This document shows positions 35,088 to 64,000 of a stretch of 64,000 nt of DNA, piece after piece. Numbering within the stretch: the stretch's first letter is position 1; each line of letters starts with the position of its first letter. The notes under the pieces were generated by a model. It was not told the origin of the DNA and did no database searches. It saw only the letters and a list, made by a program, of their open reading frames with translations. The position numbers were made by a program, and so were the translations under genes. The stretch comes from Lachnospiraceae bacterium (GTDB lineage: Bacteria; Bacillota; Clostridia; Lachnospirales; Lachnospiraceae), in assembly GCA_021771755.1 (NCBI GenBank), contig JAETOL010000003.1:124001-188000 (forward strand), in the 5' to 3' direction.

Positions 35088-35111
35088 AAATATTAGTTGC
35101 AGGAGAGAAAA

Positions 35112-50116: not shown

Positions 50117-50194
50117 ATGGTTCCTCCCTTTGGTAAATGGACCGGTCAATGTCTGGGGTGCTGTAAGCGCCTGTGTTTTTGTGTTTCTATCTAT

Positions 50195-50222
50195 TAGACG
50201 TCTGGAAGGTAGAAAAGGATTC
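50195..50222 (-). promoter_or_regulatory. Candidate ECF-type promoter of the sigma operon
   Basis: On the minus strand GAATCC (complement of 50217-50222), 16 bp and CGTCTA (complement of 50195-50200). The CGTC -10 core is typical of ECF sigma promoters. It would let the sigma factor read its own operon. Confidence 0.5.
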
Positions 50223-50366
50223 AAAAAAATAATTTTTTTTAATTCTTTTTCGTTCACAAATCTAACATAAATTTTTGATACGATAAAAAGGAATATAGAA
50301 AGAAGTATAAGGAGTGCTGTGTGCATTCACTTATCATGATTATATAGAAAAACAGGAGGTATGGAT

Positions 50367-52576: not shown

Positions 52577-52585
52577 GACGAAAAT

Positions 52586-52625
52586 CGGCAGATGTAAAGA
52601 AATCCCTTTGCATCTGCCTTTTTTT
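52586..52625 (+). terminator. Terminator after the kinase gene
   Basis: GGCAGATG pairs with CATCTGCC (inner AAAG/CTTT adds 3-4 pairs), followed by a run of seven T. Confidence 0.92.
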
Positions 52626-52666
52626 GGAGTATAATCGACATATCTTAGGAAAAAAGGGGACAGCAT

Positions 52667-52816
52667 ATGATTGGGATTATAGATTATGATAGCTATCACG
52701 AATTCAGAACCTCAGTAAATACGTCATCTGTAGCGTTATATTTCACAGAATATAAACATTTTACGAATTATTTACGAATTATATTGCCTCGAATGTATCA
52801 TCCTAAAAAAAGATAA
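52667..52816 (+). pseudogene. Chimeric frame: first 8 codons of a hisH-like gene fused to element DNA
   Basis: A TTGCAT/TATAAT promoter (TATAAT near 52629), a ribosome site AAAAGGGG and ATG 52667 lead into MIGIIDYD, the start of HisH-type glutamine amidotransferases (usual continuation AGN). From 52691 the frame reads unrelated residues to TAA at 52814 (49 codons in all). GATAGCTATC, a perfect 10-bp palindrome, spans the junction (52688-52697). This marks the probable edge of the mobile element, or of a rearrangement. Confidence 0.65.
52760..52781. repeat. Tandem direct repeat at the element edge
   Basis: TTTACGAATTA occurs twice head to tail (52760-52770, 52771-52781), about 70 bp inside the junction. 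Such repeats can be recombinase arm sites. Confidence 0.55.
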
Positions 52817-52826
52817 TTAAATTGTG

Positions 52827-52872
52827 AGCATCAGCAGGTTAGACAACCAATAATCTGTTGGTGCTCTTTTTA
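52827..52872 (+). terminator. First terminator of the element
   Basis: GAGCATCAGCAG pairs with CTGTTGGTGCTC (two G-U pairs), followed by TTTTTATTT. It blocks read-through from the chromosomal promoter into the element. Confidence 0.85.
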
Positions 52873-52963
52873 TTTGTAAATAAAAATATATTGATACTGC
52901 ATTTTTTCCTAATATTATCTTGAGTGATGTATAATTACCCTACAGGAAAAGAGGAAATGAAAA

Positions 52964-53281
52964 ATGAATGATGAAAGAGAAGTAATATGTTCAGAATGTG
53001 GAAAACCGTTAAAGTATTATGACAGTGTTCCAAGGCTTGTACGAACTAAAGGGCGACAAACTCAGCAAGTAAAAATTCAGCGTTTTCGTTGTCCTTATTG
53101 TGGCGGCATACATAGAAGTTTACCAGATTATATTTTTCCGTACAAGCAATATGAAGCGGAGATTATTCGAGGTGTGCTAGAAGGTTTCATTACGTGTGAG
53201 ACCATCGGATATGAGGATTACCCCTGTGAGATGACAATGCTCCGCTGGAAATCTTCGCAGGAATTACAAATGCTTTTATGA
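52964..53281 (+). CDS. DUF6431-like zinc-ribbon protein
   Basis: 105 aa. Two zinc knuckles, CSECGKPL near the start and FRCPYCGGIHRSLPDY in the middle, then KQYEAEIIRGVLEG. This matches the DUF6431 pattern, found near mobile DNA. Probably DNA-binding; function unknown. ATG 52964 follows AGAGGAAATG. It is the first gene of the element's visible part. Confidence 0.75.
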   Translation: MNDEREVICSECGKPLKYYDSVPRLVRTKGRQTQQVKIQRFRCPYCGGIHRSLPDYIFPYKQYEAEIIRGVLEGFITCETIGYEDYPCEMTMLRWKSSQELQMLL

Positions 53282-53296
53282 AAGGAGCGTGATAAA

Positions 53297-53386
53297 ATGA
53301 AGATTAAGAAAAGGGTAAAGATCAAGCAATATATTTGGACTTTGATTGGTCGTATTTTATACAGAATTGGATATTTAAAGGATTGA
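53297..53386 (+). CDS. Very small basic protein
   Basis: 29 aa: KIKKRVKIKQ followed by a short hydrophobic helix (YIWTLIGRILYRIGYL). An AAAGGAG ribosome site lies 8 bp before ATG 53297 and a terminator begins at its stop codon. The position and ribosome site support a real gene; basic plus hydrophobic composition suggests a membrane or nucleic-acid-associated peptide. No family recognised. Confidence 0.55.
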   Translation: MKIKKRVKIKQYIWTLIGRILYRIGYLKD

Positions 53387-53409
53387 GCCGGCAACGGCTC
53401 TTTCTTTTT
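53385..53409 (+). terminator. Element-type terminator
   Basis: GAGCCG-GCAA-CGGCTC followed by TTTCTTTTT. It is one of several in the element with the same CGGCTC/GGGCTC-TTTCTTTTT tail. Confidence 0.85.
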
Positions 53410-53485
53410 ACATAAATACCACCGAGGTTGTTTTTACTATTACTTATTTCTAACCTAGAATAGCCAGTGAAAGGAGGGCAAACTT

Positions 53486-53905
53486 ATGGGAACAACAATA
53501 CGCCCGGAATTATCCGAAAAGAATCCTTATTGGCTTGAAAAACATCGGTACTATGAATTAAAGCATTTTTGCCTACAATACCCTATCTGGAGGAAAGCTT
53601 ATTCATCTTTAGATAGTCTTGCTACTCGTCCGGCGGATTTAGCAATGTCTGTAGTAACCAATACATTGAGTGATCCGACTGCTAAATGTGCAATAGCGAA
53701 GGCATTTTACTCAGAGCGAATAAATATGGTTAAAAGAGTTGCTGAGAAAACCGATCCGGTTCTAGCAGATTATATTTTGAATGCTATCGTAGAAGGATGG
53801 TCATACGATATCCTTAAAGCTAGATTAGAAATTCCGTGCTGTAAGGATACCTATTACGAATTGTACAGACGTTTTTTCTGGTTATTGAGTAAGGAGCGAA
53901 AATGA
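53486..53905 (+). CDS. ArpU/RinA-like phage regulator (putative)
   Basis: 139 aa. Begins NPYWLEKHRYYELKHFCLQYP (first part NPYWLEKHRYYELKHF), ends in a helix-turn-helix-like IPCCKDTYYELYRRFFWLL. The length and the C-terminal pattern resemble late-gene regulators ArpU/RinA of Firmicute phages. ATG 53486 follows AAAGGAGGG. It is followed 1 bp later by a zinc-ribbon gene. Family call tentative. Confidence 0.6.
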   Translation: MGTTIRPELSEKNPYWLEKHRYYELKHFCLQYPIWRKAYSSLDSLATRPADLAMSVVTNTLSDPTAKCAIAKAFYSERINMVKRVAEKTDPVLADYILNAIVEGWSYDILKARLEIPCCKDTYYELYRRFFWLLSKERK

Positions 53906-53906
53906 T

Positions 53907-54113
53907 ATGAAGATTGTAGATAGAGCTGTAAAGAAAGTATATCGGTTCAACTGTCCAAATTGTCAGAGCCGGCTTGAAGCGGAGAGCCAGGAACTGGTCG
54001 ATATCGGTGGTAAGGTAAGCAAATTCTTCTGCCCCGTTTGCAGAAGAGATCGTTACATAACATGGTCTGATTTGCGAAAGAAGATTATTTACGAGGGCGA
54101 GAAAACGCAATAA
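53907..54113 (+). CDS. Small zinc-ribbon protein
   Basis: 68 aa. Two CxxC pairs (FNCPNCQSR and FFCPVCRRDRYITW) make one zinc ribbon of about 30 residues between them. No other domain. ATG 53907 is 1 bp after the upstream stop (ATGATATGA arrangement), ribosome site AAGGAGCG. Function unknown; a nucleic-acid-binding role is plausible. Its stop codon lies within a copy of the 25-bp element motif. Confidence 0.72.
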   Translation: MKIVDRAVKKVYRFNCPNCQSRLEAESQELVDIGGKVSKFFCPVCRRDRYITWSDLRKKIIYEGEKTQ

Positions 54114-54130
54114 TTACATCTCCTATTATG
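54106..54130 (+). promoter_or_regulatory. 25-bp element motif, copy 1
   Basis: CGC-N8-CA-N5-TATTATG, 33 bp before ATG 54163. It overlaps the stop codon of the upstream gene. Candidate promoter-like site: TATTAT resembles a -10 box, but no -35 hexamer is at normal distance. Confidence 0.7.
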
Positions 54131-54162
54131 GAAGAAAAACATACTTTGCAGGAGGTAAAATT

Positions 54163-54348
54163 ATGAAAGTAAAATTAAACATTTTGGAGAGAGTTGTAAT
54201 TAAATTCGCTTGGCTGTTAAGTGATTTGTCGTTTAAAATCACCCAGTCAATCCATAAAAAATATGCCCCAGAACATGTTTATAATACGCATACTTATAAT
54301 GGTAAAAGCTGTAGAGAAATGGTCTTTAGCAACGAGAAAGAGTCCTAA
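54163..54348 (+). CDS. Small hypothetical protein, element cassette
   Basis: 61 aa. N-terminal amphipathic/hydrophobic stretch (ILERVVIKFAWLLSDLSF), a basic middle and KEYAPEHVYNTHTYNGK-like polar part; not assigned to a family. GCAGGAGG lies before ATG 54163. Its last two codons and stop (GAG TCC TAA) form the first arm and loop of the terminator at 54340. Confidence 0.65.
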   Translation: MKVKLNILERVVIKFAWLLSDLSFKITQSIHKKYAPEHVYNTHTYNGKSCREMVFSNEKES

Positions 54349-54366
54349 CAAGGGCTCTTTCTTTTT
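54340..54366 (+). terminator. Terminator with embedded stop codon
   Basis: GAGTCC-TAACAA-GGGCTC-TTTCTTTTT; the TAA of the loop is the stop codon of the gene at 54163. Same form at 56224 and 58048. Confidence 0.85.
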
Positions 54367-54476
54367 ATCCTAGATTAGAAATCGTACGGAGGTTACGGAA
54401 AAACATGCTATTTTGATATTTGAAAAATTGCCCGAGAGGGAATTTATGAAAACTTTTTGAAAGGAGAAGGAATAAA

Positions 54477-54698
54477 ATGCAAGCTATTATTTTCTTAGCA
54501 ATCGGGATTGTGGTCGGATGTATCTTATCAAGATTCATTCCAAAGAAGATTGTCGGTACACTTCGGGTCGATAGATCAGATCCGGACAGCGGACCATATT
54601 TGTTTCTGGAGCTTACACATGGTGGTATGGAAACAATAAAAAAGAAAAAATATGTGTTGTTTGAGGTTAATCTGAAAAGTTATATTCCGCATGAATAA
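54477..54698 (+). CDS. Small phage membrane protein
   Basis: 73 aa. One N-terminal membrane helix (IIFLAIGIVVGCILSRF), then GTLRVDRSDPDSGPYLFLEL and a KKKYVLFEVNL end. The LRxDRSDPDxxPYLFLEL motif is a recurrent small protein of Firmicute phages of unknown function. ATG 54477 follows GAAAGGAGAAGG. The preceding 110 bp hold a terminator tail and no gene. Confidence 0.78.
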   Translation: MQAIIFLAIGIVVGCILSRFIPKKIVGTLRVDRSDPDSGPYLFLELTHGGMETIKKKKYVLFEVNLKSYIPHE

Positions 54699-54712
54699 CA
54701 AATCCTTTTATG
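54688..54712 (+). promoter_or_regulatory. 25-bp element motif, copy 2
   Basis: CGC-N8-CA-N5-TTTTATG, starting within the last codons of the gene at 54477 and lying 37 bp before ATG 54749. Confidence 0.65.
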
Positions 54713-54748
54713 GAATCCGAAAATAGATTATTTGAAAGGAGAAACAAA

Positions 54749-55165
54749 ATGGATGAAAACAATATTAAGGAATTGTTGAGTGTAGAGATTGCTGAGGAGA
54801 TTCAGGCTTTATCTACTCTGGCATCCGGAAGTAAAGAAAAATCAACAGCGATTGATGATTTGACGAAGCTGTATAAACTGAGAATCGAGGAAAACAAGAG
54901 CGAATGGGACGCTGATGAAAAGTATAATCGTCGTGTGATGGAAGATGAATCCAACGTACGAGATGATGAAGTGAAGCGTGTCCAGATTGCGGAACAGGTC
55001 AAGGATCGATATTTCAGACTGGGTATAGCTGCGGCAGAACTTATGATACCGTTGATGTTCTACGGCGTATGGATGAAAAAGGGATTTAAGTTTGAGGAAA
55101 CAGGAACGTATACTTCAACAACATTCAGAGGATTGTTCAATCGTTTTAGACCGACAAAAAAGTAA
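54749..55165 (+). CDS. Phage-type hypothetical protein with C-terminal hydrophobic part
   Basis: 138 aa. A charged, helical first two thirds (EELLSVEIAEEIQALSTLASGSKEK, quoted in part as EIAEEIQALSTLASGSKEK) that looks like a coiled coil, then ELMIPLMFYGVWMKKGFKFEE with one short hydrophobic segment. Similar proteins occur next to minor structural genes in Firmicute phages (from memory, tentative). ATG 54749 follows AAAGGAGAAAC. Confidence 0.65.
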   Translation: MDENNIKELLSVEIAEEIQALSTLASGSKEKSTAIDDLTKLYKLRIEENKSEWDADEKYNRRVMEDESNVRDDEVKRVQIAEQVKDRYFRLGIAAAELMIPLMFYGVWMKKGFKFEETGTYTSTTFRGLFNRFRPTKK

Positions 55166-55221
55166 ATATTGAGATTCTGAACGGGAGGCGTGCGAATTGC
55201 ATTGCCTCTTCGTTTTTCTTC

Positions 55222-55246
55222 GCCAATAATACATTGCTTTTTATGA
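55222..55246 (+). promoter_or_regulatory. 25-bp element motif, copy 3
   Basis: CGC-N8-CA-N5-TTTTATG (CGCC at the start). It follows an AGGC/GCCT hairpin and T-run at about 55185-55218 and lies 88 bp before ATG 55335. Confidence 0.6.
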
Positions 55247-55334
55247 GAGAATAAAGCTTTATCTCTTGAACTGAAGTTACCAGTTTGTGTACAATATGTA
55301 TATAAGCTGGACAGTAGAAAGGAGATATTTAGCT

Positions 55335-55562
55335 ATGAGTATTTTTAACGAAGAGCAAATTAAAGCAATGTTCAGTAGAGAGTATATCTGTCGTGAATGC
55401 GGAAGGATTATGGAGTTTGAGGATGAATGGGAAGACGCGTTAGTTTGTCCCCATTGCGGTCATAGTGTAGAGTTAGATAGATATGGCTGTGAAAATGATG
55501 AAGAATATGAGAACTTATATCCTACACGAGAAGAAGTATTGGGAAGTGCTGACGAGGAATAA
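55335..55562 (+). CDS. Acidic zinc-ribbon protein
   Basis: 75 aa. CRECGRIMEFEDEWEDALVCPHCGH has two CxxC knuckles (CRECG and CPHCG), the rest very acidic (ENDEEYENLYPTREEVLG). Likely a small zinc-binding adaptor. ATG 55335 follows GAAAGGAGA; the upstream frame from 55287 lacks a ribosome site. Third zinc-ribbon protein within 2.6 kb. Confidence 0.72.
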   Translation: MSIFNEEQIKAMFSREYICRECGRIMEFEDEWEDALVCPHCGHSVELDRYGCENDEEYENLYPTREEVLGSADEE

Positions 55563-55657
55563 TAAGTTTGCAGAAAGTTAGATAATTAAAAACATAAGCT
55601 AAGGGAAAGGGTCTTGGAGAAATCTGAGGCTCTTTCTTTTTTGTCCAGGAGCAGATT

Positions 55658-56017
55658 ATGAGATACCATTATAAGAAACCGGGAATTTACTTATCGATGT
55701 ACGGCAGAATTTATATTTGTGAGCATCCGGTTTACAATAGCTGTACATTATTTGAAATTGGAGATAAAGGACTGGCTGTTATACAGCAAAGATTTGATGT
55801 GGACACAAAAAGCACCTGGTGGGGAGAGGTGGATCCATGGCTGACCGATGATTTATATTTGCACCCCCAATTTAAGCAATATTTTGATAGGCGTGCCGGA
55901 ACGTGTACGGACGGATTATATCCAACGGTTACAGTCCGGCAAATTATGTGGGCATTGAAAATGAAGCCCATTAAAAGAGAACGATGGGAAACCGTTTTTG
56001 ACAGACGAGATATTTAG
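55658..56017 (+). CDS. Hypothetical phage-like protein
   Basis: 119 aa, cytosolic, rich in aromatic residues (TKSTWWGEVDPWLTDD, FDRRAGTCTDGLYP). No family recognised. ATG 55658 follows CAGGAGCAG. The end overlaps the start of motif copy 4 by nothing but 1-2 bp, showing the tight packing of the element. Confidence 0.6.
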   Translation: MRYHYKKPGIYLSMYGRIYICEHPVYNSCTLFEIGDKGLAVIQQRFDVDTKSTWWGEVDPWLTDDLYLHPQFKQYFDRRAGTCTDGLYPTVTVRQIMWALKMKPIKRERWETVFDRRDI

Positions 56018-56018
56018 A

Positions 56019-56043
56019 CGCAAAATCTACAACTCCTTTTATG
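56019..56043 (+). promoter_or_regulatory. 25-bp element motif, copy 4
   Basis: CGC-N8-CA-N5-TTTTATG, directly after the stop of the gene at 55658 and 34 bp before ATG 56077. Confidence 0.65.
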
Positions 56044-56076
56044 AAAAATATACGTTTTTACGGAAGGAGAAAATTT

Positions 56077-56232
56077 ATGAGTACAACAGAAAGACATTTA
56101 AGCAACAAGATTCGTATGTTTGAGGACATGCTATTGCGTAGCAAAAACAACTATGAAATTGAAACTCTAAGAAACGAATTAACGAAAATGCGTATATCAT
56201 TACAAAAAATGCGATATGTGAAGGAGTCCTAA
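56077..56232 (+). CDS. Very small helical protein
   Basis: 51 aa, mostly one amphipathic helix (NKIRMFEDMLLRSKNNYEIE). ATG 56077 follows GAAGGAGAA. Ends in GAG TCC TAA, which is part of the terminator at 56224. No family recognised. The ATG at 56041 is in frame but belongs to the 25-bp motif. Confidence 0.6.
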   Translation: MSTTERHLSNKIRMFEDMLLRSKNNYEIETLRNELTKMRISLQKMRYVKES

Positions 56233-56250
56233 CGGGGCTCTTTCTTTTTT
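56224..56250 (+). terminator. Terminator with embedded stop codon
   Basis: GAGTCC-TAACG-GGGCTC-TTTCTTTTTT; the TAA is the stop of the gene at 56077. Motif copy 5 begins 4 bp later. Confidence 0.85.
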
Positions 56251-56253
56251 CTT

Positions 56254-56278
56254 CGCATAAATTCCATCGTCTATTATG
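56254..56278 (+). promoter_or_regulatory. 25-bp element motif, copy 5
   Basis: CGC-N8-CA-N5-TATTATG, 34 bp before ATG 56312, right behind the preceding terminator. Confidence 0.7.
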
Positions 56279-56311
56279 AAACCTATATGGATTTGAAAGG
56301 AGCAAAGGAGC

Positions 56312-56530
56312 ATGGACGAAGTGAAAATTGTATCTAAATTCACGAGGAGTGTGATTTCCAAGCTAATAAAGGCGATGCTACATAAAAAGCTTGGGTATAA
56401 TGTTGATATTCAACTGAATGGGGTGAACGTCACTATTATGGACGGAAAAACACATGTTCATCTGGATATAGATGCGGAATTGGATAAGGACGAACTTGTT
56501 AAGATCCTGAAAAACATTGGTTTGAATTAA
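56312..56530 (+). CDS. Small hypothetical protein
   Basis: 72 aa with the pattern of a small alpha/beta fold: SVISKLIKAMLHKKLGYNVDI, then VNVTIMDGKTHVHLDIDAEL. It resembles small phage proteins of unknown role. ATG 56312 follows GGAGCAAAGGAGC. A perfect hairpin terminator starts 6 bp after its stop. Confidence 0.65.
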   Translation: MDEVKIVSKFTRSVISKLIKAMLHKKLGYNVDIQLNGVNVTIMDGKTHVHLDIDAELDKDELVKILKNIGLN

Positions 56531-56536
56531 GAGATT

Positions 56537-56561
56537 GAGCCGACAGCGGCTCTTTCTTTTT
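56537..56561 (+). terminator. Element-type terminator before the tRNA-like gene
   Basis: GAGCCG-ACAG-CGGCTC followed by TTTCTTTTTC. Motif copy 6 begins 4 bp later. Confidence 0.85.
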
Positions 56562-56564
56562 CTT

Positions 56565-56589
56565 CGCAAAAAATACAATGTCTATTATG
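56565..56589 (+). promoter_or_regulatory. 25-bp element motif, copy 6 (before the tRNA-like gene)
   Basis: CGC-N8-CA-N5-TATTATG, identical to copy 8 over all 25 bases. It ends 2 bp before the tRNA-like gene at 56592. Confidence 0.75.
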
Positions 56590-56591
56590 GA

Positions 56592-56662
56592 GAGACAGTT
56601 AGCTCAGTTGGTAGAGCACCGCGCTTCTGTGGAAGTCATCGGTTCGATTCCGATACTGGCTC
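56592..56662 (+). tRNA. tRNA-His-like gene with shortened anticodon arm
   Basis: 71 nt. The D arm GCTC-AGTTGGTA-GAGC and T arm ATCGG-TTCGATT-CCGAT are perfect. The acceptor AGACAGT/ACTGGCT pairs with one A-G mismatch, extended by G(-1):C73, the tRNA-His identity pair. GTG is present in the middle. With the normal variable loop AAGTC, however, the anticodon stem CCGCG/TGTGG closes only a CTTC loop, three bases short of the usual seven. CCA is not encoded. It may be a degenerate tRNA, an unusual active tRNA or a tRNA mimic. Confidence 0.75.
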
Positions 56663-56705
56663 TCTTTTATTTTTATTCAAGTCGAAAGGAGAAAACGAAA
56701 ATGAT

Positions 56706-57023
56706 ATGAGCATTGAGCAATTTGAGTTGATTATGTGCGATATGTATCAGATGGATGCATGGATGCCGAATCCTGTCTTTGATAAGTATGAATTTGCTAA
56801 AAGCAGCTATTCGCAATGGGCGATTAGTGAATTCGGAAATTATCTTGTACGGTCACTCTATCCAAGAACGGAAGGAACAATTGATGAGTTTATTAATATG
56901 GCAGAAAAGTTTATCGGGAAAATGGATTATTATTCTACAATTAACTCTGCCAATAGCAGGATGTTTTCAATAGCACGAAATACAGTTGCTGACATTCAGG
57001 ATATGCTTCGGGCTATGAAATAA
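56706..57023 (+). CDS. Hypothetical protein, paralogue of 58093 gene
   Basis: 105 aa, all-helical, no signal. The stretches SYSQWAISEFGNYL, FINMAEKFIGKMDYY and FSIARNTVADI line up with SWSKENIRKQAYARWTVDE..., ENFIIKIEYLL and FTIAENTAENL of the protein at 58093. So this small family has two members in the element. ATG 56706 follows GTCGAAAGGAG. Function unknown. Confidence 0.65.
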   Translation: MSIEQFELIMCDMYQMDAWMPNPVFDKYEFAKSSYSQWAISEFGNYLVRSLYPRTEGTIDEFINMAEKFIGKMDYYSTINSANSRMFSIARNTVADIQDMLRAMK

Positions 57024-57047
57024 AACGCAAATTGAAAGGGGAAGATC

Positions 57048-57842
57048 ATGAGAAACAAAGATGCAATAATGTTATATCTAAAACGAGGTTCACCGACTAT
57101 TTTGACCTGTATTGGTGCCATCGGTGTTGTTGCCACTTCAGCTATGGCCGTTCATGCTACACCAAAGGCACTTAAGCTGATTCATAAGAATAGCCGGATA
57201 GAACACAATGGAGATCCTTACGCATACACAAAAACTGAAGCTATTCGATCAGCATGGAAATGTTATATTCCGTCTGTCCTAATCGGAACGTCTACAATCG
57301 TATGTATATTTGGGGCGAATGTTCTAAAACATCATCAACAGGCAGCACTGACAAGCGCATATGCGTTGGTTAATAATGCCTATCAGGAATATCGCAGCAA
57401 GGTAAAAGAATTATACGGCGAAGAAACACATCAAAGAATTGTAGATTCTATTGCGAAAGACAGGTGTAAGGATGTCTATATTTCCTCACCGGGGATTTTC
57501 AATAGTAGTTCTTTGGATTTTGATGATCATGATCCAGAAGATAACCGATTATTTTACGATTCATTTTCAAAAAGATATTTTGAAAGCTCCATTATTCGAG
57601 TTATTGAAGCAGAATACCACCTGAATCGTAATTGGTGGTTAGGAGCTGGGATTTGCCTTAATGATTTTTATGAATTACTCGGTCTGGACGGCATTGATGG
57701 GGGCGATGAACTTAGCTGGTTTCCGGAAGATGGAATTAATTGGGTAGATTTCAATCATCATAAAACAGTATTGGATGACGGTCTTGAGATATATGTGATC
57801 GAATTTGTTTTTACTCCGAGGCTGGCAACCGAGTTTGATTGA
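57048..57842 (+). CDS. DUF6353-like membrane protein 1
   Basis: 264 aa. Two hydrophobic helices: TCIGAIGVVATSAMAVHATPK (about 19-39) and IPSVLIGTSTIVCIFGANVL (about 78-97), then a cytosolic ALTSAYALVNNAYQEYRSKVKE helix and an acidic domain. The same layout and motifs recur at 60215 and 62522. By memory this is the DUF6353 phage family; function unknown. ATG 57048 follows GAAAGGGGAAG. It is the most diverged of the three, lacking the HSPEIL lead-in. Confidence 0.78.
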   Translation: MRNKDAIMLYLKRGSPTILTCIGAIGVVATSAMAVHATPKALKLIHKNSRIEHNGDPYAYTKTEAIRSAWKCYIPSVLIGTSTIVCIFGANVLKHHQQAALTSAYALVNNAYQEYRSKVKELYGEETHQRIVDSIAKDRCKDVYISSPGIFNSSSLDFDDHDPEDNRLFYDSFSKRYFESSIIRVIEAEYHLNRNWWLGAGICLNDFYELLGLDGIDGGDELSWFPEDGINWVDFNHHKTVLDDGLEIYVIEFVFTPRLATEFD

Positions 57843-57844
57843 TT

Positions 57845-57869
57845 CGCAAAATTCACAAACGCTATTATG
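57845..57869 (+). promoter_or_regulatory. 25-bp element motif, copy 7
   Basis: CGC-N8-CA-N5-TATTATG, 2 bp after the stop of the gene at 57048 and 20 bp before ATG 57889. Confidence 0.7.
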
Positions 57870-57888
57870 AAAGGAGGCTATATGCTTT

Positions 57889-58056
57889 ATGAATGGAAAG
57901 ATTATTAAAGTCATTGGATTAATTGCAACGATAGCCGGTGTGGGAGCAAATCTTATTACCGACTGGGTGAGTGAAAAGAAGATGGATGAGAAAATTGAGG
58001 AAAAGATCAATGAAGCATTGGCTGTCAGAGACAGAAAAGATGGGGAGGAGTCCTAA
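57889..58056 (+). CDS. Small single-helix membrane protein
   Basis: 55 aa. One N-terminal membrane helix (IIKVIGLIATIAGVGANLI) and a charged cytosolic tail with KKMDEKIEEKINEAL coiled-coil pattern. AAGGAGG lies 11 bp before ATG 57889. Ends GAG GAG TCC TAA inside the terminator at 58048. Small proteins of this form occur in phages as holin-like or tail-chaperone proteins; no family claimed. Confidence 0.65.
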   Translation: MNGKIIKVIGLIATIAGVGANLITDWVSEKKMDEKIEEKINEALAVRDRKDGEES

Positions 58057-58074
58057 CAAGGGCTCTTTCTTTTT
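58048..58074 (+). terminator. Terminator with embedded stop codon
   Basis: GAGTCC-TAACAA-GGGCTC-TTTCTTTTT; TAA (58054-58056) is the stop codon of the gene at 57889. Identical in stem and loop to the one at 54340. Confidence 0.88.
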
Positions 58075-58092
58075 ACTTTTGAGGACAAGCCT

Positions 58093-58383
58093 ATGAACGA
58101 AGACGCAATCCAAAAAATTCTGAATTATGAAAAAGAGTTTTTGTTTGAACCTTACTCGTGTTGGTCAAAAGAAAACATTCGGAAACAAGCTTATGCGAGA
58201 TGGACCGTTGATGAGATACTAATATCTATCATGGATCATCCTTTTACAGAACCGGAACTGATTGTAGAAAACTTTATTATCAAAATCGAATATTTACTAC
58301 ATATTTCAGAAAATGCGACAGCAAATACTATATTCACAATTGCTGAAAATACGGCCGAGAATCTTCTCGGTCTTATTTTATAA
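58093..58383 (+). CDS. Hypothetical protein, paralogue of 56706 gene
   Basis: 96 aa, helical. It aligns with the protein at 56706 over its whole length by eye (YARWTVDE, TEPELIVENFIIKIEYL, IFTIAENTAENL). Ribosome site GAGGACAAG before ATG 58093. The gene is followed after 35 bp by the first DGR-type variable protein. Function unknown. Confidence 0.62.
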   Translation: MNEDAIQKILNYEKEFLFEPYSCWSKENIRKQAYARWTVDEILISIMDHPFTEPELIVENFIIKIEYLLHISENATANTIFTIAENTAENLLGLIL

Positions 58384-58418
58384 CCACAAAACTTTAATTT
58401 GAAAGGAGAAACAAGAAT

Positions 58419-59285
58419 ATGGAAAGAAAATTTAACAACTACAGAGGATTGGAAACAACAGCGGTTTGTAATCTCATGAAACAGATGATTAAACGTGGGG
58501 CGACTGATGAGGAATTGCTTAAAGTTGTCACTTATTTTGAAGCAGCAATTGATTTTGATGCCGCAAACATTCGACTTAATGATGCTGCGCAGAAAAACGA
58601 CGTTAAAGCATTGGCAGAAAAGTATAATTCGTTCGATTGGACGGATGACATTGTGAGGTATTGCGAAGCCGATGTTGAGGCAACACAAGAAGCTATCAAC
58701 CAGCTTTTTGGTATTCCTAATGGTGTCACCGTTTCCAGAAGGCAGAAAACAAGAATTCCGATTTCCAATATCAAAGTTGGGGATCAAATCGCTATTCCGT
58801 TAAAAGGATTCGGAACGTTTCTGGCTACAGCGCACAAAGTGACCAATAATGGTGCGATGTTCATTTTTGACGGATACGTTGCGAAAAGACCAATGAATGA
58901 GAAAAACACCAACAATGGAGGATTTGAAGAGTCCGATTTGAAGCGATGGATGGACACAGAACTTCTTGCTTCTTTTCCGGATTGGATCAAATCAAGAATT
59001 TATGGTCTGACAATTCCTACAGTAGGAGAAGTTATTGGCTGGAATGATGATTGGAATAGAGAACATTTTGAAAAGGATTTTGATCAGCAGCTTCCGTTAA
59101 TGAAAGAGTGCAAAAACAGGAGTGCCTATTTTAAGAATGAGTTAGAGTGGGGATGGCTTAGAAATGCAATGAAACAGGAATATTCTTCGGCTTCCTTCGC
59201 CATTGTGTACGGCATTGGCGGTGCGAGCTGCCTCGACGCTTCGAGCTCTTGTGGGGTTCGTCCGGAATTCTGGTTGGTTAGGTGA
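58419..59285 (+). CDS. DGR-type variable protein 1 (DUF6273 domain)
   Basis: 288 aa. N-terminal helical region (about 1-95) has ATDEELLKVVTYFEAAIDFD and DDIVRYCEADVEATQEAI. From about 105 a C-type-lectin-like DUF6273 domain: GDQIAIPLKGFGTFLATA, PMNEKNTNNGGFEESDLKRW, LTIPTVGEVIG, and a C-terminal variable stretch ending CGVRPEFWLVR. No signal or membrane segment, so it is cytosolic or carried on a virion. ATG 58419 follows GAAAGGAG. Its end is a variable region (59202-59252) that differs from protein 2 in the adenine-mutagenesis pattern. Confidence 0.85.
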   Translation: MERKFNNYRGLETTAVCNLMKQMIKRGATDEELLKVVTYFEAAIDFDAANIRLNDAAQKNDVKALAEKYNSFDWTDDIVRYCEADVEATQEAINQLFGIPNGVTVSRRQKTRIPISNIKVGDQIAIPLKGFGTFLATAHKVTNNGAMFIFDGYVAKRPMNEKNTNNGGFEESDLKRWMDTELLASFPDWIKSRIYGLTIPTVGEVIGWNDDWNREHFEKDFDQQLPLMKECKNRSAYFKNELEWGWLRNAMKQEYSSASFAIVYGIGGASCLDASSSCGVRPEFWLVR

Positions 59286-59306
59286 GATCATGGGGCCTTG
59301 TGCCCC
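59202..59306 (+). other. Variable region 1 with downstream hairpin
   Basis: Codons ATT, TAC, GGC, ATT, GGT, AGC, TGC, CTC, GAC, AGC, TGT (59202-59252) differ from variable region 2 only at codon bases 1-2; the codons between (GTG, GGC, GCG, GCT TCG, TCT, GGG GTT CGT CCG) are identical and contain no A. GGGGC-CTTGT-GCCCC (59292-59306) follows 27 bp after CCG. This is the design of a DGR variable repeat with initiation-of-homing region and hairpin. Confidence 0.85.
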
Positions 59307-59351
59307 TGTTTATATTTATTAAAATTTTTTAAGTCGAAAGGAGAAAATACT

Positions 59352-60215
59352 ATGTTGAACATAACGAGAAAAGCTACTTATGATGATGTTGCAGAATCTA
59401 ACATTCGGATTGGTGATCAGATTAAGATTCCGGTTAAGGGATTTGGCGTATTTATGGCTACTGCCGAGAAGGTAACAAACGATTCTGTTTTGTTCATCTT
59501 TGATGATATTGTTGCCAGAAAGCCGATGAACGAGACTAATACCAACGAGGGTGGGTTCAAAGAATCCCAACTTTACAAGTGGTTGCAGAATACTTTGTTG
59601 CCGGCATTTCCCGAACACTTGCGCTCTATGATTTCTGAACTGACAATTCCGACTGTCGGTCAGATTGTTGGACACAGTGACGAATGGGATAACGAACATT
59701 TTGAAGGAGACAGAGATGAACAGCTTCCGCTTATGAAAGATCGAAAACATCGTATAGCGTTGTTTGAGGATGATTTCTCATGGTACTGGGTACAGAATGC
59801 TACCAAGAAAGATTGGTCTTCGGCTTGCTTCGCCTGTGTGTCCTCCTATGGCGATGCGTACTACGACAGCGCTTCGAACTCTGTTGGGGTTCGTCCGGCT
59901 TTCTGGCTGGTTAAGGATAAATCCAGGGGCCCTGTGCCCCGTAAGTCCGATCGTTTTCCGTGGGGTTTTGATTTCGGTATGGAGGACATTTTGCGTTATT
60001 GTCAGAACGATGTAAAAATTACAGAAGAATCAGTGTTAAGGATGGAAATTCTGAAGAAAGAGATCGAAAAGTTGGAGAAATATAAGCAGTACGATGAAGC
60101 AACAGCAGAAACCAAAGTGATTATGGATAGCTTTGTTCGTGCTGGTTTTTCCGATGACCAGGCATTTGATATGGTTAAATCGATGCTTATTACAGTGCTT
60201 GGAGGAATGCGATAA
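59352..60215 (+). CDS. DGR-type variable protein 2 (DUF6273 domain)
   Basis: 287 aa. The DUF6273 domain comes first (about 10-195; GDQIKIPVKGFGVFMATA, PMNETNTNEGGFKESQLYKW, variable stretch, VGVRPAFWLV), followed by a C-terminal tail with MEDILRYCQNDVKITEESV and RAGFSDDQAFDMVKSML. The tail resembles the N-terminal part of protein 1, so the two domains are in opposite order. ATG 59352 follows GTCGAAAGGAG. Its stop overlaps the next start (TAATG). No signal peptide. About half of the shared domain is identical by eye. Confidence 0.85.
   Translation: MLNITRKATYDDVAESNIRIGDQIKIPVKGFGVFMATAEKVTNDSVLFIFDDIVARKPMNETNTNEGGFKESQLYKWLQNTLLPAFPEHLRSMISELTIPTVGQIVGHSDEWDNEHFEGDRDEQLPLMKDRKHRIALFEDDFSWYWVQNATKKDWSSACFACVSSYGDAYYDSASNSVGVRPAFWLVKDKSRGPVPRKSDRFPWGFDFGMEDILRYCQNDVKITEESVLRMEILKKEIEKLEKYKQYDEATAETKVIMDSFVRAGFSDDQAFDMVKSMLITVLGGMR
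59835..59940 (+). other. Variable region 2 with downstream hairpin
   Basis: Codons TGT, TCC, TCC, TAT, GAT, TAC, TAC, GAC, AGC, AAC, GTT (59835-59885) are the counterparts of those in region 1. GGGGC-CCTGT-GCCCC (59926-59940) follows 28 bp after CCG, here inside the coding frame. An expected template would have AAY at each variable codon. Confidence 0.85.
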
Positions 60216-61036
60216 TGAAGAAATCAAACATATCAAAAGCGTTGTCATCAATTCGGACATCCGTGGCAAAACACAGTCCTGAAATCCTAACAGGCATCGG
60301 TATTGCCGGAATGATTGTGACAACCGTGATGGCTGTTCAGGCTACCCCCAAAGCGTTAATTCTGATTGATAATGAAAAAAAGAGAATCAATCAACGGTTT
60401 TTTGATGAGGCAAAAGCAGAGGGTTATGAAGAGTTTGCCAGGGTAGATCGTTTAAAACCCGTTGAAATTATAAAAACGACGTGGATATGTTACCTTCCTG
60501 CGGTAATAACAGGCGGTGTGTCGATTGCTTGCTTGATTGGTGCCAATTCTGTAAATGCTCGAAGAAATGCGGCGCTTGCCACCGCATACACATTATCCGA
60601 ATCCGCGCTTAAAGAATATCAGGAGAAAGTCGTCGAAACAATTGGTGAAAAGAAAGAACAGTCGGTGCGAGATGCTATTGCGAAAGATAAGCTGGAGCAG
60701 AATCCTGTAATGAGCCGTGAGGTTATCATTACGGACAAGGGCGATACTCTCTGCTTTGATGCAGTATCCGGACGGTATTTTAAGTCTGACATTGAAAAAT
60801 TAAAAAAAGCCGTGAACGAGCTTAACCGTCAGATGCGGGATGAGATGTATATTTCACTGAACGAGTTCTATTATGAAATTGGTCTGAGCGGTATCGGTAT
60901 TGGTGATGATCTTGGTTGGAACATTGACAATGGTTATATTGAGCCGCATTTCAGTTCTCAACTGGCGGAGGATGGTAAACCTTGTCTGGTTATCAGCTAT
61001 CTTGTCGGTCCAAGATACGATTATCGTAATGGTTAA
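60215..61036 (+). CDS. DUF6353-like membrane protein 2
   Basis: 273 aa. The lead-in KHSPEILTGIGIAGMIVTTVM and VQATPKALILI, a second helix IKTTWICYLPAVITGGVSIACL, then NARRNAALATAYTLSESALKEY and a soluble acidic domain ending in YLVGPRYD. Same family as 57048 and 62522. Its ATG overlaps the variable protein stop (TAATG), so the two are co-translated. That coupling links the DGR target to a membrane partner. Confidence 0.82.
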   Translation: MKKSNISKALSSIRTSVAKHSPEILTGIGIAGMIVTTVMAVQATPKALILIDNEKKRINQRFFDEAKAEGYEEFARVDRLKPVEIIKTTWICYLPAVITGGVSIACLIGANSVNARRNAALATAYTLSESALKEYQEKVVETIGEKKEQSVRDAIAKDKLEQNPVMSREVIITDKGDTLCFDAVSGRYFKSDIEKLKKAVNELNRQMRDEMYISLNEFYYEIGLSGIGIGDDLGWNIDNGYIEPHFSSQLAEDGKPCLVISYLVGPRYDYRNG

Positions 61037-61041
61037 TGGTT

Positions 61042-61066
61042 CGCAAAAAATACAATGTCTATTATG
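61042..61066 (+). promoter_or_regulatory. 25-bp element motif, copy 8
   Basis: CGC-N8-CA-N5-TATTATG, identical to copy 6. It lies 39 bp before ATG 61105 and 6 bp after the stop of the gene at 60215. Confidence 0.75.
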
Positions 61067-61104
61067 GAAAGATTACCTATTTTATTCTGAAAGGAGAAAG
61101 CAAA

Positions 61105-61380
61105 ATGGAAACTAACGAAATTATGAACAACGAGGAAGTTATCGAGGAAACAACTGAGGAAATCGTGAAAGCGACTTCTCGTAGCGGTTTGAAAACAGCG
61201 ACAACGATTGGGTTAGCTATGATTGCCGGCGGACTGGCTTGCAAATTCGTAGTGGAGCCTGCGTTGGAAAGGTTTAAAACCTGGAGAGCGAGTCGCAAAG
61301 TAACAATTTGTTCTCAGGCAGATTCGGAATGTGACTCTGACGAAGATTTCGAGGAAGAAGAGAAAGACTCCGAAGAATAG
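61105..61380 (+). CDS. Small membrane protein with acidic tail
   Basis: 91 aa. An acidic N-terminus (NNEEVIEETTEEIVKATS), one membrane helix (TTIGLAMIAGGLACKFVV) and a strongly acidic C-terminus (DSDEDFEEEEKDSEE). ATG 61105 follows GAAAGGAGAA; upstream in-frame starts overlap the motif. No family recognised. It is one of several single-helix proteins in the element. Confidence 0.68.
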   Translation: METNEIMNNEEVIEETTEEIVKATSRSGLKTATTIGLAMIAGGLACKFVVEPALERFKTWRASRKVTICSQADSECDSDEDFEEEEKDSEE

Positions 61381-61399
61381 GCAGTAAAAAATTTAGACA

Positions 61400-61437
61400 A
61401 GGGAGGGCATCTGTGACAAGGTGCTTTCCCTTTTTCT
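61400..61437 (+). terminator. Terminator
   Basis: AGGGAGGGCATC pairs with GGTGCTTTCCCT (several G-U pairs), then TTTTTCTTTT. Confidence 0.78.
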
Positions 61438-61458
61438 TTTGATGTATGGAGGGATATT

Positions 61459-61662
61459 ATGAACCAGTATGCATATGACGGACCTGTTATGGAATTTGGT
61501 ACCTGCGTTGCGACAAGATGGAAAGCTTCCACATATGCAGTATCTGAAAATAAGGCAAGAAGCAATCTCACATATCAGTTTAAAAAAAGGCACAACAGAG
61601 TTCCCGGGACAAAAATCACGCTTCCAGGGAAGGTTATTATGATAAATGAAGGGAGGTCGTGA
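61459..61662 (+). CDS. Small hypothetical phage-like protein
   Basis: 67 aa, basic, cytosolic (CVATRWKASTYAVSENKARSN then LTYQFKKRHNRVPGTKITLPG). The pattern is recurrent in Firmicute phages and conjugative elements, of unknown role. ATG 61459 follows GGAGGG. It ends at 61662 and the next gene begins 2 bp later with its own ribosome site GGGAGG. Confidence 0.68.
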   Translation: MNQYAYDGPVMEFGTCVATRWKASTYAVSENKARSNLTYQFKKRHNRVPGTKITLPGKVIMINEGRS

Positions 61663-61663
61663 G

Positions 61664-62254
61664 ATGGAGGATTACAAACCTAATTCTCACAAATTAAAAG
61701 AAGAACGCGAGGCATCTCTGCCAGAAAAGAAGGTGGAGAAGATAGTCAGCGGTTCCGTTAAATCGAAAAAGAAAAATGGAATTCAGAAAATAACAGATGT
61801 GTTTATCCCCGAAGATGTGGATAACGTGAAAACATATGTCTTTGAAGATGTTATTGTTCCTGCGGTAAAAGATATTATTTTGGATACGGTCAGAGCTTTT
61901 CTCGGTATTGATAAAAAATCGGGAAGAAATTCAAATGCGTCTAAAGTGGCATATAGAAGCTATTACGATAAAGATAACAGAAGAGATTCTAATGCGACGA
62001 GAATCCGGACGGGTTATGATTTTGACGATATTATTTTGGATAACCGTGGGGAAGCGGAGGATGTTCTGGCAAGAATGGACGAGTTGATTGATACCTATGG
62101 TTTGGTCAGCGTGGCAGATTTTTATGATCTTGTTGGTGTCAGCGGAAATTACACAGATAATAAATACGGATGGTCGAATATTCGAAGTGCTTCCGTAATT
62201 CGGGTCAGAGATGGCTATATGATTAAACTTCCGAAGGCTTTACCGCTGAATTAG
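61664..62254 (+). CDS. Hypothetical phage protein
   Basis: 196 aa. Basic disordered N-terminus, then FEDVIVPAVKDIILDTVRAF, a Ser/Arg/Asn-rich middle (SNASKVAYRSYYDKDNRR) and a C-terminal VLARMDELIDTYGLVSVADFYDLVGVSG domain (quoted in part: RMDELIDTYGLVSVADF). This C-terminal block is frequent in Firmicute phages beside DUF3310 genes, as here. Function unknown. ATG 61664 follows AAGGGAGG. Confidence 0.7.
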   Translation: MEDYKPNSHKLKEEREASLPEKKVEKIVSGSVKSKKKNGIQKITDVFIPEDVDNVKTYVFEDVIVPAVKDIILDTVRAFLGIDKKSGRNSNASKVAYRSYYDKDNRRDSNATRIRTGYDFDDIILDNRGEAEDVLARMDELIDTYGLVSVADFYDLVGVSGNYTDNKYGWSNIRSASVIRVRDGYMIKLPKALPLN

Positions 62255-62267
62255 ATGGGGGATAACA

Positions 62268-62519
62268 ATGTACGAATCAAAAGATAAATTAGTATCGCAT
62301 CCGGCTCATTATCAGTCAGAAACCGGGTTAGAAGTTATCGATGTCATCGAAGCGTTTACGTTCGATTTAAAAGGTATTGAGGCGACGGATACCGGAAACA
62401 TCATTAAGTATGCCTGCCGTTGGAAGAACAAAAACGGTATACAGGATTTAGAGAAGATTATGTGGTATACACAGCATCTGATTGATCATTTGAGAAAACT
62501 TGAAAAGGAGAATAATTGA
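62268..62519 (+). CDS. DUF3310-family phage protein
   Basis: 83 aa. VSHPAHYQSETGLEVIDVIE, then GNIIKYACRWKNKNGIQDLEK and YTQHLIDHL: the family hallmark (SHPxHY and KY.xRxxxKxGxxDLxK). It is related to nucleotide-handling phage proteins; the precise role is not known. ATG 62268 behind GGGGGATAAC. Strongest single indicator that the element is phage-derived. Confidence 0.88.
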   Translation: MYESKDKLVSHPAHYQSETGLEVIDVIEAFTFDLKGIEATDTGNIIKYACRWKNKNGIQDLEKIMWYTQHLIDHLRKLEKENN

Positions 62520-62521
62520 TT

Positions 62522-63481
62522 ATGAAAAAAACAGAGATTATGAAAAAGGTAAGCACGACCTTTGGTAAGGTTGGTTTTCAGATGAAAAAACACAGCCCGG
62601 AGATTCTTATTGTGGCTGGCGTCATCGGTACAGTGGCGAGTGCGGTAATGGCTTGTAAAGCTACAACCAAAGTAGGAGAAATCGTAGAAAAGACGAAGGA
62701 TGACTTAGACGAGATCCACAAAGCGGCCGAGGCCGGTGTCACCAATGCCGGCGAAACGTATAACGAGGATGATTCAAAAAAAGATTTGGCTATTGTATAT
62801 GCTCGTACCGGCTTTGAATTTGTAAAGCTTTATGCACCGTCTGTTATTATGGGTACGCTTTCACTTACGAGTATTATTGCGTCAGATAATATTCTCCGTA
62901 AAAGAAATGCCGCACTGGCAGCAGCATATGCGACTGTAGACAAAGGTTTTAAGGATTATCGGGGACGAGTGATTGAACGCTTTGGCGAGGGCGTTGACCG
63001 GGAATTGAAAAACGGTGTGAAAGCAAAAAAGGTTGATGCGATTGAAACTGATCCGGAAACCGGAAAAGAGAAAAAAGTTAAAAAACAGAAATTAGTAGCG
63101 AATCCGTCTGATATCAGCGGATATGCCCGTTTCTTTGAGCAGTACACAACCGACGAAGATGGGACAACCATTTTAAATCGGAACTGGGAAAGCAACAATG
63201 ATTACAATCTGATGTTTCTTAAAGCTCAGGAAAAATTTGCCAACGATCTTTTGATAGCTAAAAAACGTGTATTTCTGAATGAGGTTTATGAAGCACTTGG
63301 CTTCCCTCGTACGAAAGCAGGACAGATTGTCGGTTGGGTATATGACGAAGAAAATCCAATCGGGGACAATTATATTGATTTTGGTCTTCATGAGGATAAT
63401 CCGGTATATTCCGATACTGAAGATAATTCCGCGATTTTGCTTGACTTCAACGTTGACGGAAACATCTGGGATCTGATGTAG
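62522..63481 (+). CDS. DUF6353-like membrane protein 3
   Basis: 319 aa, the longest of the three. KKHSPEILIVAGVIGTVASAV and a second helix VIMGTLSLTSIIASDNIL, then KRNAALAAAYATVDKGFKDY. The C-terminal half adds a long soluble domain with a lysine-rich loop (TGKEKKVKKQK) and ends in a VYDEENPIGDNYIDFGLHED acidic part. The ATG at 62522 is taken over TTG 62516; AAAAGGAG precedes it. Function unknown; all three likely sit in the same membrane complex. Confidence 0.82.
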   Translation: MKKTEIMKKVSTTFGKVGFQMKKHSPEILIVAGVIGTVASAVMACKATTKVGEIVEKTKDDLDEIHKAAEAGVTNAGETYNEDDSKKDLAIVYARTGFEFVKLYAPSVIMGTLSLTSIIASDNILRKRNAALAAAYATVDKGFKDYRGRVIERFGEGVDRELKNGVKAKKVDAIETDPETGKEKKVKKQKLVANPSDISGYARFFEQYTTDEDGTTILNRNWESNNDYNLMFLKAQEKFANDLLIAKKRVFLNEVYEALGFPRTKAGQIVGWVYDEENPIGDNYIDFGLHEDNPVYSDTEDNSAILLDFNVDGNIWDLM

Positions 63482-63512
63482 TTGTAAAATTTGGAACAGG
63501 AGGATTTACATT

Positions 63513-63614
63513 ATGAATAGTATTTTATCATTTGTATCTTATACGTTAGCGGCTATGGCTGGGATCTGTTTTGTAGGTGGCATCGCCGTGTTATCGGGTG
63601 GGAAGGAGAATTGA
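63513..63614 (+). CDS. Mini membrane protein
   Basis: 33 aa, one membrane helix (LAAMAGICFVGGIAVL). CAGGAGG lies before ATG 63513. The next gene starts 3 bp after its stop. Small enough to be missed; the ribosome site and packing support it. Confidence 0.6.
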   Translation: MNSILSFVSYTLAAMAGICFVGGIAVLSGGKEN

Positions 63615-63617
63615 GCT

Positions 63618-63779
63618 ATGGATGGAATCGGAAACCTTATATCCATGCTTGATTATGTGCTGGATACAAAACGGAAAAGGCATATCACGGGGGGTATTCT
63701 TTTGAGTGCCTCTCTTCTTTTTGGTGGGTTGGCGCTCACGGTTATGACAATAAACGACGAGGAGGAAGAGGATGAATAA
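63618..63779 (+). CDS. Mini membrane protein
   Basis: 53 aa. A basic segment (YVLDTKRKRH) before one membrane helix (ILLSASLLFGGLALTVMTI) and an acidic tail (NDEEEEDE). Overlaps the next gene by 8 bp. Ribosome site GGAAGGAG inside the previous gene's end. Confidence 0.62.
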   Translation: MDGIGNLISMLDYVLDTKRKRHITGGILLSASLLFGGLALTVMTINDEEEEDE

Positions 63780-64000
63780 TAAAGCAGTAACTTTTCTGGC
63801 ATTTGTTCTTGGTGCAGCCGCCGGTTCATTCATAACCTGGCGTCATGTCAAAGATATTTATGAACAGATTGCGCAGGAAGAAATCGATTCTGTAAAAGAA
63901 GTGTTTTTGAAACGGGAAGCGGAAATGAATCCAAAAACAGATGATGAACCGAGCTTATATCCTAAGATTGCAGCTTGTTACGAAAATGGTGAAAGTAAAA
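63772..64000 (+). CDS. Small membrane protein, cut by the window end
   Basis: At least 76 aa. One membrane helix (VTFLAFVLGAAAGSFITW) and a charged tail (EQIAQEEIDSVKEVFLKRE). GAGGAGGAAGAG precedes ATG 63772. The frame is open to base 64000, so the 3' end is outside. The single-helix layout resembles its neighbours. Confidence 0.65.
   Translation, partial: MNNKAVTFLAFVLGAAAGSFITWRHVKDIYEQIAQEEIDSVKEVFLKREAEMNPKTDDEPSLYPKIAACYENGESK

Follow-up and report, generated by a model that had tools for sequence, protein, structure and literature searches.

The stretch of DNA analysed here (the window, 64,000 nt) corresponds to positions 124001-188000 of contig JAETOL010000003.1 (referred to as C24) in a 3.70-Mb draft genome of a Lachnospiraceae bacterium (assembly GCA_021771755.1, 164 contigs). 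Its right part harbors two adjacent genes of DUF6273 proteins, each containing an 80-nt variable repeat (VR1 and VR2, respectively) and situated at the left end of a 60.8-kb prophage bracketed by a 20-nt direct repeat (C24:176762-176781 and C24:237586-237605), the putative attachment core. At the right end of the prophage there are, in this order, a gene with a third repeat (VR3; 274 aa), an Avd-like frame, a template repeat and a reverse transcriptase (RT) gene, i.e., the components of a diversity-generating retroelement (DGR), all of which, the remote repeats included, read rightward (Table 1). VR1 and VR2 are 51.0 kb and 50.3 kb away from the template, and a terminase-like gene is located between the left-end targets and the right-end cassette; its product is matched by phage sequences at up to 81% identity, and several other matches are annotated as terminase. 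Judged solely by position, the long frames between the prophage ends may have phage roles such as tail and tape measure, and the left end would represent the early region.

Table 1. Features of the prophage and its retroelement (window coordinates unless prefixed with C24)
Feature	Position	Direction	Remarks
20-nt direct repeat, left copy	52762..52781	+	putative attachment core
DUF6353 paralogue a	57048..57842	+	putative membrane protein upstream of the targets; Pfam PF19880 E 4.4e-71; maximum hydropathy 1.99
30-nt motif copy	57843..57872	+	0 mismatches; between DUF6353 paralogue a and the target genes
Remote target 1	58419..59285	+	DUF6273 protein, 288 aa; Pfam PF19789 E 1.9e-9; PHROG 21980 E 1e-87
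VR1, 80 nt	59184..59263	+	3' end of the first DUF6273 gene; template A changed 17/23, other positions 0/57
Hairpin GGGGC-CTTGT-GCCCC	59292..59306	+	after VR1, just past the stop codon
Remote target 2	59352..60215	+	DUF6273 protein, 287 aa; Pfam PF19789 E 8.9e-12
VR2, 80 nt	59817..59896	+	within the second DUF6273 gene; template A changed 15/23, other positions 0/57
Hairpin GGGGC-CCTGT-GCCCC	59926..59940	+	after VR2, inside the frame, translated as RGPVPR
DUF6353 paralogue b	60215..61036	+	putative membrane protein adjoining target 2 downstream; Pfam PF19880 E 1.9e-86; hydropathy 1.95
DUF6353 paralogue c	62516..63481	+	PHROG 2152 E 1.6e-86
VR3	C24:232989	rightward	beside the cassette, tail-side target; template A changed 15/23, other positions 0/57
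Avd-like gene	C24:233654-234139	rightward	161-aa frame; PHROG 3206 'Avd protein of DGR' E 1.2e-5
Template repeat	C24:234157	rightward	23 A in 80 nt; AAC/AAT at nearly every variable codon
RT gene	C24:234349-235185	rightward	PHROG 1423 E 2.9e-43
20-nt direct repeat, right copy	C24:237586-237605		past the window end, directly after the integrase gene

Compared with the template, the three repeats are changed at 47 of 69 adenine (A) positions and at none of the 171 other positions (Fisher p 2.6e-33). The initial annotation, made from the window, had noticed twelve codons differing between VR1 and VR2, all of the NNC or NNT type with the third base in common, as well as the lack of A in the shared codons; both observations proved correct, the shared codons being TCG, GCT, TTC, GCC, GTG, GGC, GCG, GCT, TCG, TCT, GGG, GTT, CGT and CCG. 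The assignment of both genes to DUF6273 was confirmed with Pfam (Table 1), and the proposed span (59202-59885) is right as to location, the 80-nt repeats being slightly wider. The view of both genes as targets of one DGR with an AAY template is supported by the presence of the template, the Avd-like gene and the RT gene in the same prophage; such machinery is found in its relatives as well. The template had been expected to read GGC AAT GCG followed by four AAC codons; it reads GGC AAT GCG AAC TAC AAC AAC, with TAC in place of one of the four.

In the whole 3.7-Mb genome, a 24-nt pattern was found in five places at up to three mismatches, the exact ones being VR1, VR2, VR3 and the template; its reversed control was found in 10 places, the mismatch numbers of which were not displayed. 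A second, 27-nt pattern, at up to two mismatches, returned the identical four exact places and one with two mismatches (three for the control). The picture is, very probably, that of a phage-borne DGR with a single template and three targets, of which two are remote. During its operation, the template RNA would be copied by the RT together with Avd with errors at A, and the complementary DNA would take the place of the repeat in each of the three genes by mutagenic retrohoming, the shared GGGGTTCGTCCG end and the hairpin downstream of the repeats presumably acting as guides.

In relatives, the remote repeats have changed recently and specifically at adenines: as the initial annotation had anticipated, near-identical relatives differ almost solely at the template-adenine positions. 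The remote genes of loci L125 and L128, which possess a C-terminal extension of the kind seen in the VR2 gene, display 0/809 differences outside the repeat, but 13/26 at template A and 0/60 at the other positions inside it. The six pairs among L123, L124, L125 and L128 show 0-19 differences outside the repeat, 12-18 of 26 at A and 0/60 at other positions. In the virus contigs L023, L024, L026 and L027, the corresponding figures are 0-1/526, 11-20/25 and 0/58; L021 and L022 are identical throughout. In the virus-contig comparison, 12 loci were aligned, and the pairs with less than 12% difference outside the repeat are reported; the A positions were taken from a single template per comparison (that of genome G042 for the virus contigs, that of G100 for the L123-L128 pairs).

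A target-profile scan of GTDB species genomes yielded 39 loci, from which 22 genomes were taken for the RT search and 23 loci for the neighbourhood survey. The search with an intact RT returned a match in 21 of the 22 genomes, and in 20 of these the locus of the matched RT contains a template for both near and remote repeats. In the 20 genomes, template A was changed at 400/612 positions in the remote repeats (n = 27; other positions, 4/1008) and at 323/493 positions in the near ones (n = 22; other positions, 7/827). Templates were sought within 1150-1420 of each RT-oriented locus (within 1-2000 in the case of G101), and pairs were discarded if they had over four non-A differences, were antiparallel or, for near pairs, lay downstream of the template. 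The unfiltered tallies, in which double counts and spurious rows are included, amount to 473/730 vs. 24/1250 for the remote and 349/554 vs. 17/1006 for the near repeats. The scan left out G113 (best RT match 28% identity, E 1.8e-8), G121 and the RT loci L182, L185, L186 and L187; the near pair found in L182 (G113) was set aside owing to the distant relationship of its RT. The match between L187 and L158 (27/33 A, 10/27 non-A) was dismissed as spurious. The distance from the remote repeat to the template, measured in 15 genomes, is 48.5-51.8 kb in 11 of them, 24 kb in two, and 58 and 112 kb in one each; except for G112 and G117, the identity of the contigs was checked by their length. The named hosts of the loci include Hungatella hathewayi, [Clostridium] citroniae, [Ruminococcus] torques and Cuneatibacter caecimuris.

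VR1, VR2 and VR3 are all followed by a hairpin composed of GGGGC, five nucleotides and GCCCC, which is absent from the template region. Like the hairpin behind VR2, that of L123-L128 is translated (SRGPVPR), and L161 reads SGGRVPH. The hairpin comes after 19/21 repeats in the first 11 elements (this one included) and 47/49 repeats of the 20 genomes (26/27 remote and 21/22 near), the finder used for the latter set requiring a 5-nt C..GT loop; some virus records repeat genomes of the GTDB set (e.g., the remote repeats of G042 are identical to those of the L136 prophage), so the two samples are not independent. The stems vary together with their complements (GGGGC, GGGGGC, CGGGGC, CCGCCC, GACCC, GGGCGGG, CCCGGCCC), and across them the loop is constantly C..GT (CTTGT, CCTGT, CTCGT, CTAGT). 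The hairpin of Bordetella phage BPP-1 is reported to matter strongly but not absolutely (PMC3240598, PMC12875486), the stem-loop being described as important though not strictly needed (PMC12875486); it is the structure and not the sequence of the stem that counts, whereas the loop is sequence dependent (PMC3240598). The BPP-1 hairpin has a 7-10 bp stem and a 4-nt GRNA loop; here, the stem is 5 bp (5-8 bp in the relatives) and the loop is the 5-nt C..GT.

The RT gene starts 192 nt past the template start. The RTs most closely related to it are complete, possess SQ and YMDD or YSDD motifs and, where scanned, have a template of their own. The RT of this assembly is 278 aa long vs. 396-436 aa in the relatives alignable end to end (L033, L034, L035, L037): ca. 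119 residues (188-306 of the intact relative), including the DQLSQ and YMDD/YSDD blocks, are absent. With the intact relative as the query, residues 1-187 (84% identity) and 307-396 (88%) adjoin in one frame of this genome; the same search found nothing similar to the missing block elsewhere in the assembly. By descent, the cassette belongs to the DGR family. Lacking the catalytic block, the copy is probably inactive, unless the assembly is wrong; it is likely unable to diversify further, with the three repeats frozen. For the Avd-like frame, Pfam returned only sub-threshold unrelated matches.

The remote target proteins differ in their architecture: target 1 has an N-terminal extension of ca. 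105 residues and target 2 a C-terminal one of ca. 100 residues past the repeat, similar to that in seven genome loci (L123-L128 and L161). By eye, the two extensions (58419-58740 and 59925-60215) resemble each other, both featuring the motif D-I-x-x-YC-x-x-DV as well as a helical RGAT/RAGF segment, which gives the impression of a single module attached at either end. The VR1, VR2 and VR3 proteins are devoid of strongly hydrophobic stretches, as judged by hydropathy alone (maximum 19-residue mean 0.6-1.1) and with no signal-peptide predictor run. DUF6273 is reported to be C-type-lectin-like, with the repeat on a surface hairpin (PMC10743442). The Foldseek search with a weak target model (predicted local distance difference test, pLDDT, 58) retrieved viral models named DUF6273 (best E 2.9e-5) and a solved immunoglobulin A peptidase (E 0.018), an enzyme whose N-terminal domain is called DUF6273 in PMC12402451; the target-profile sequence search of the PDB gave a single match (E 0.088).

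The neighbours of the distal targets are DUF6353 genes and small frames, the DUF6353 proteins of the window possessing hydrophobic stretches (maximum 19-residue mean 1.95-2.1). The order DUF6353a-DUF6273-DUF6353b-DUF6353c is retained in 21/23 genome loci, the exceptions being the distant L158 and L160, and in the virus contigs which are long enough. Within this order, the DUF6273 gene is doubled in L139 and L161, and an extra DUF6273 gene precedes DUF6353a in L129, L132, L134, L136 and L146. A Foldseek search of the DUF6353 model against the PDB returned 238 matches at E <= 10 and none at E <= 0.001; in the full-text search of open-licence PubMed Central, no paper mentions DUF6353, and no description of the DUF6353-DUF6273 arrangement was found in the texts retrieved.

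The same region is marked by a 30-nt motif, TTCGCAAAAATTACA-N4-CTATTATGRAA, present in eight copies (up to four mismatches) in 52700-64000 of the window, starting at 53254, 54104, 54686, 56017, 56252, 56563, 57843 and 61040, all in the sense orientation. At the same threshold, there are no copies in the other 49.6 kb of the prophage or in 52 kb of the host flank; shuffled windows contained 0.00 copies at up to three mismatches. The motif occurs 4-11 times per locus, in sense only, in 19/21 loci of relatives (132 distinct copies were collected from the window and these 19 loci); none were found in L158, L160 and the Acutalibacter phage Fontainebleau. Its TATTAT resembles a -10 box, and the motif may represent an early promoter or operator of this phage group. 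Right behind one of its copies, Rfam reports a tRNA (56593-56662, 48.3 bits) with, by eye, the anticodon GTG (His); ARAGORN called no genes in 50000-64000 of the window, this tRNA included.

Individual elements of this arrangement have precedents. With the BPP-1 DGR, the element shares the RT, Avd, template, adenine-only change and hairpin downstream of the target repeat (PMC3240598, PMC12875486), but here there are three targets, two of them 50 kb off, and the RT core is missing in this copy. The DGR of Quimbyviridae (PMC8008677) likewise combines a tail-side target and a distal, apparently non-structural one, and a disrupted RT frame has been reported there too; the distal targets described here are called non-structural from position only, as second targets far from the cassette. 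Quimbyviridae are, however, different phages with Bacteroidetes hosts, and their distal gene lies on the other strand, in the vicinity of genes for nuclease, methyltransferase and tRNA ligase, whereas here it is found between DUF6353 genes. In four species of gut prophages (PMC12629997), second repeats are distal from the RT cassette and close to counter-defence genes, e.g., that of a DNA methyltransferase; the passages retrieved mention no DUF6353 neighbourhood. The tentaclins (PMC10743442) have in common with the targets described here DUF6273 and a repeat which is not at the C-terminus of the protein, but they are 569-579 aa long, carry immunoglobulin-like domains, and their genes are part of the DGR cassette itself.

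Two target genes have also been published for the Faecalibacterium phages Lelie and CP11 and the Roseburia phage Shimadzu (PMC11792537), and DUF6273 is said to be present in either target of Lelie and of CP11 (PMC11792537). Lelie and Shimadzu differ from the present element: their RTs are ca. 31% identical over part of the length, each phage has one distal repeat, and neither has a DUF6353 match. In template-based scans, which revealed the combination of a near and a distal repeat in Fontainebleau as well, the template and repeats were located at 19639 and 18992 and 33503 in Shimadzu, at 24519 and 26548 and 40481 in Lelie (first 50000 of 53400 bases covered) and at 35109 and 34394 and 9804 in Fontainebleau. 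The remote gene of Shimadzu is between a methyltransferase gene and a recombinase gene; that of Fontainebleau is flanked by a DNA polymerase I gene and, downstream, by a helicase gene. The second target of the latter phage (ON453893, L122; 9330-9899, replication region) is annotated as a hypothetical protein only. Remote targets would, as stated by its authors, escape a large metagenomic survey (PMC8144416). Overall, DGRs, DUF6273 as a DGR target and distal, apparently non-structural targets have already been published (PMC10743442, PMC8008677); distal DUF6273 targets within a DUF6353 neighbourhood are a well-conserved new form.

Regarding their function, the remote DUF6273 proteins could be early-expressed variable binders acting inside the cell or at the membrane with DUF6353, e.g., against host defence or rival phages, a reading to which we give slightly less than an even chance; among the putative functions of the remote targets, counter-defence or superinfection exclusion by early variable binders fits best. 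Several observations weigh against this picture or parts thereof. The near and remote pair is found in 20 of 22 genomes, the exceptions being G113, in which only a distant RT is present, and G121, in which no RT match was found (its locus L161 nevertheless has two DUF6273 genes). The remote repeats of G013 and G049 lack a perfect hairpin (2/21 of the first set). In Fontainebleau, Shimadzu and the G119/G120 loci, the remote DUF6273 gene has no DUF6353 match nearby, so the idea of a partner is not general. The fold models are weak (pLDDT 58 for the target and 64.5), hence the lectin fold of the targets rests on the literature (PMC10743442). Finally, the RT gap may be an assembly fault, and two other contigs of the genome (C10 and C55) carry RTs.

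Alternatively, the remote DUF6273 proteins might be minor virion parts (head decoration or secondary adhesin) with an unusual gene position, so that all three targets serve adsorption. DUF6273 is indeed a domain of published phage DGR targets, some of which were taken for fibre proteins (PMC10743442, PMC11792537), receptor-binding tail proteins are given as the main targets of DGRs in phages (PMC10743442), and target 2 shows a very weak match (E 0.031) to a Hoc-like head decoration PHROG. Still, the remote genes are situated at the opposite end of the prophage, by the DUF6353 genes and a motif absent from the late region, and their counterparts in Fontainebleau and Shimadzu sit among polymerase/helicase and methyltransferase/recombinase genes, which makes a virion role unlikely.

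We regard as similarly unlikely that the internal deletion of the RT is an artefact of assembly or binning and that the retroelement is active in this strain. The fragmented state of the draft and the intact target frames speak for it, along with the retention of the stretch in relatives: stop-free matches spanning the entire intact RT (residues 1 to 394-396) were obtained at 19 places in 17/22 genomes. On the other hand, the junction is in frame, its flanks are highly similar to the intact relative (see above) and no copy of the missing piece turned up elsewhere in the assembly. Besides, broken RTs recur among the relatives (split frames in L025 and L028, stops in G047, a match limited to residues 233-395 in G101), though these may be sequencing faults too. 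The same caveat applies to the RT frames observed as split, stop-containing or partial in L025, L028, L030-L032 and G101.

It is improbable that continued change of the repeats is ensured by the RT of C10 or C55 working in trans on this template: although the RT frame of C10 is uninterrupted (367 aa) and C55 harbors a split RT along with, by eye, an Avd-like segment, both RTs share just 29-36% identity with the family's intact RT, and template-anchored scans revealed no credible template/repeat pair near C10 or C55 or between them and this prophage. The C10 RT (L010) contains GNLTSQ and YMDD, and its contig has integrase-like and, by eye, lysin-like frames; the region 1008-3500 of C55 (L011) is perhaps a decayed second DGR with the RT split in two frames and the Avd-like segment in frame with a phage-like protein. 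A scan match linking C10 to the window, with 19 A and 3 non-A differences, was dismissed as spurious. The explanation of the VR1/VR2 differences without any retroelement, by chance, ordinary divergence or gene conversion, has no point in its favour and is practically ruled out, since all 47 changes are on template adenines and genes identical outside the repeat differ inside it.

Taken as a whole, the data tentatively, and with rather low confidence in the complete scheme, outline a prophage family occurring mostly in bacteria of the Lachnospiraceae type, in which one DGR would diversify both an adsorption protein and an early intracellular lectin-fold protein; the latter may form a module with the paired DUF6353 membrane proteins, i.e., a variable recognition complex of the lysogen directed against host defences or rival phages, and the loss of the RT core in single copies would freeze the selected specificity. 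The translated hairpin and the RT-deleted copy offer natural material for studies of how targets are recognized and how a variant becomes fixed. The distal targets retrieved from the literature are scattered cases, but in this family they are the rule (20/22 genomes; ca. 50 kb in 11 of the 15 measured), with a retained neighbourhood and recent change. The role of the second DGR target thus becomes a question testable in cultured hosts.

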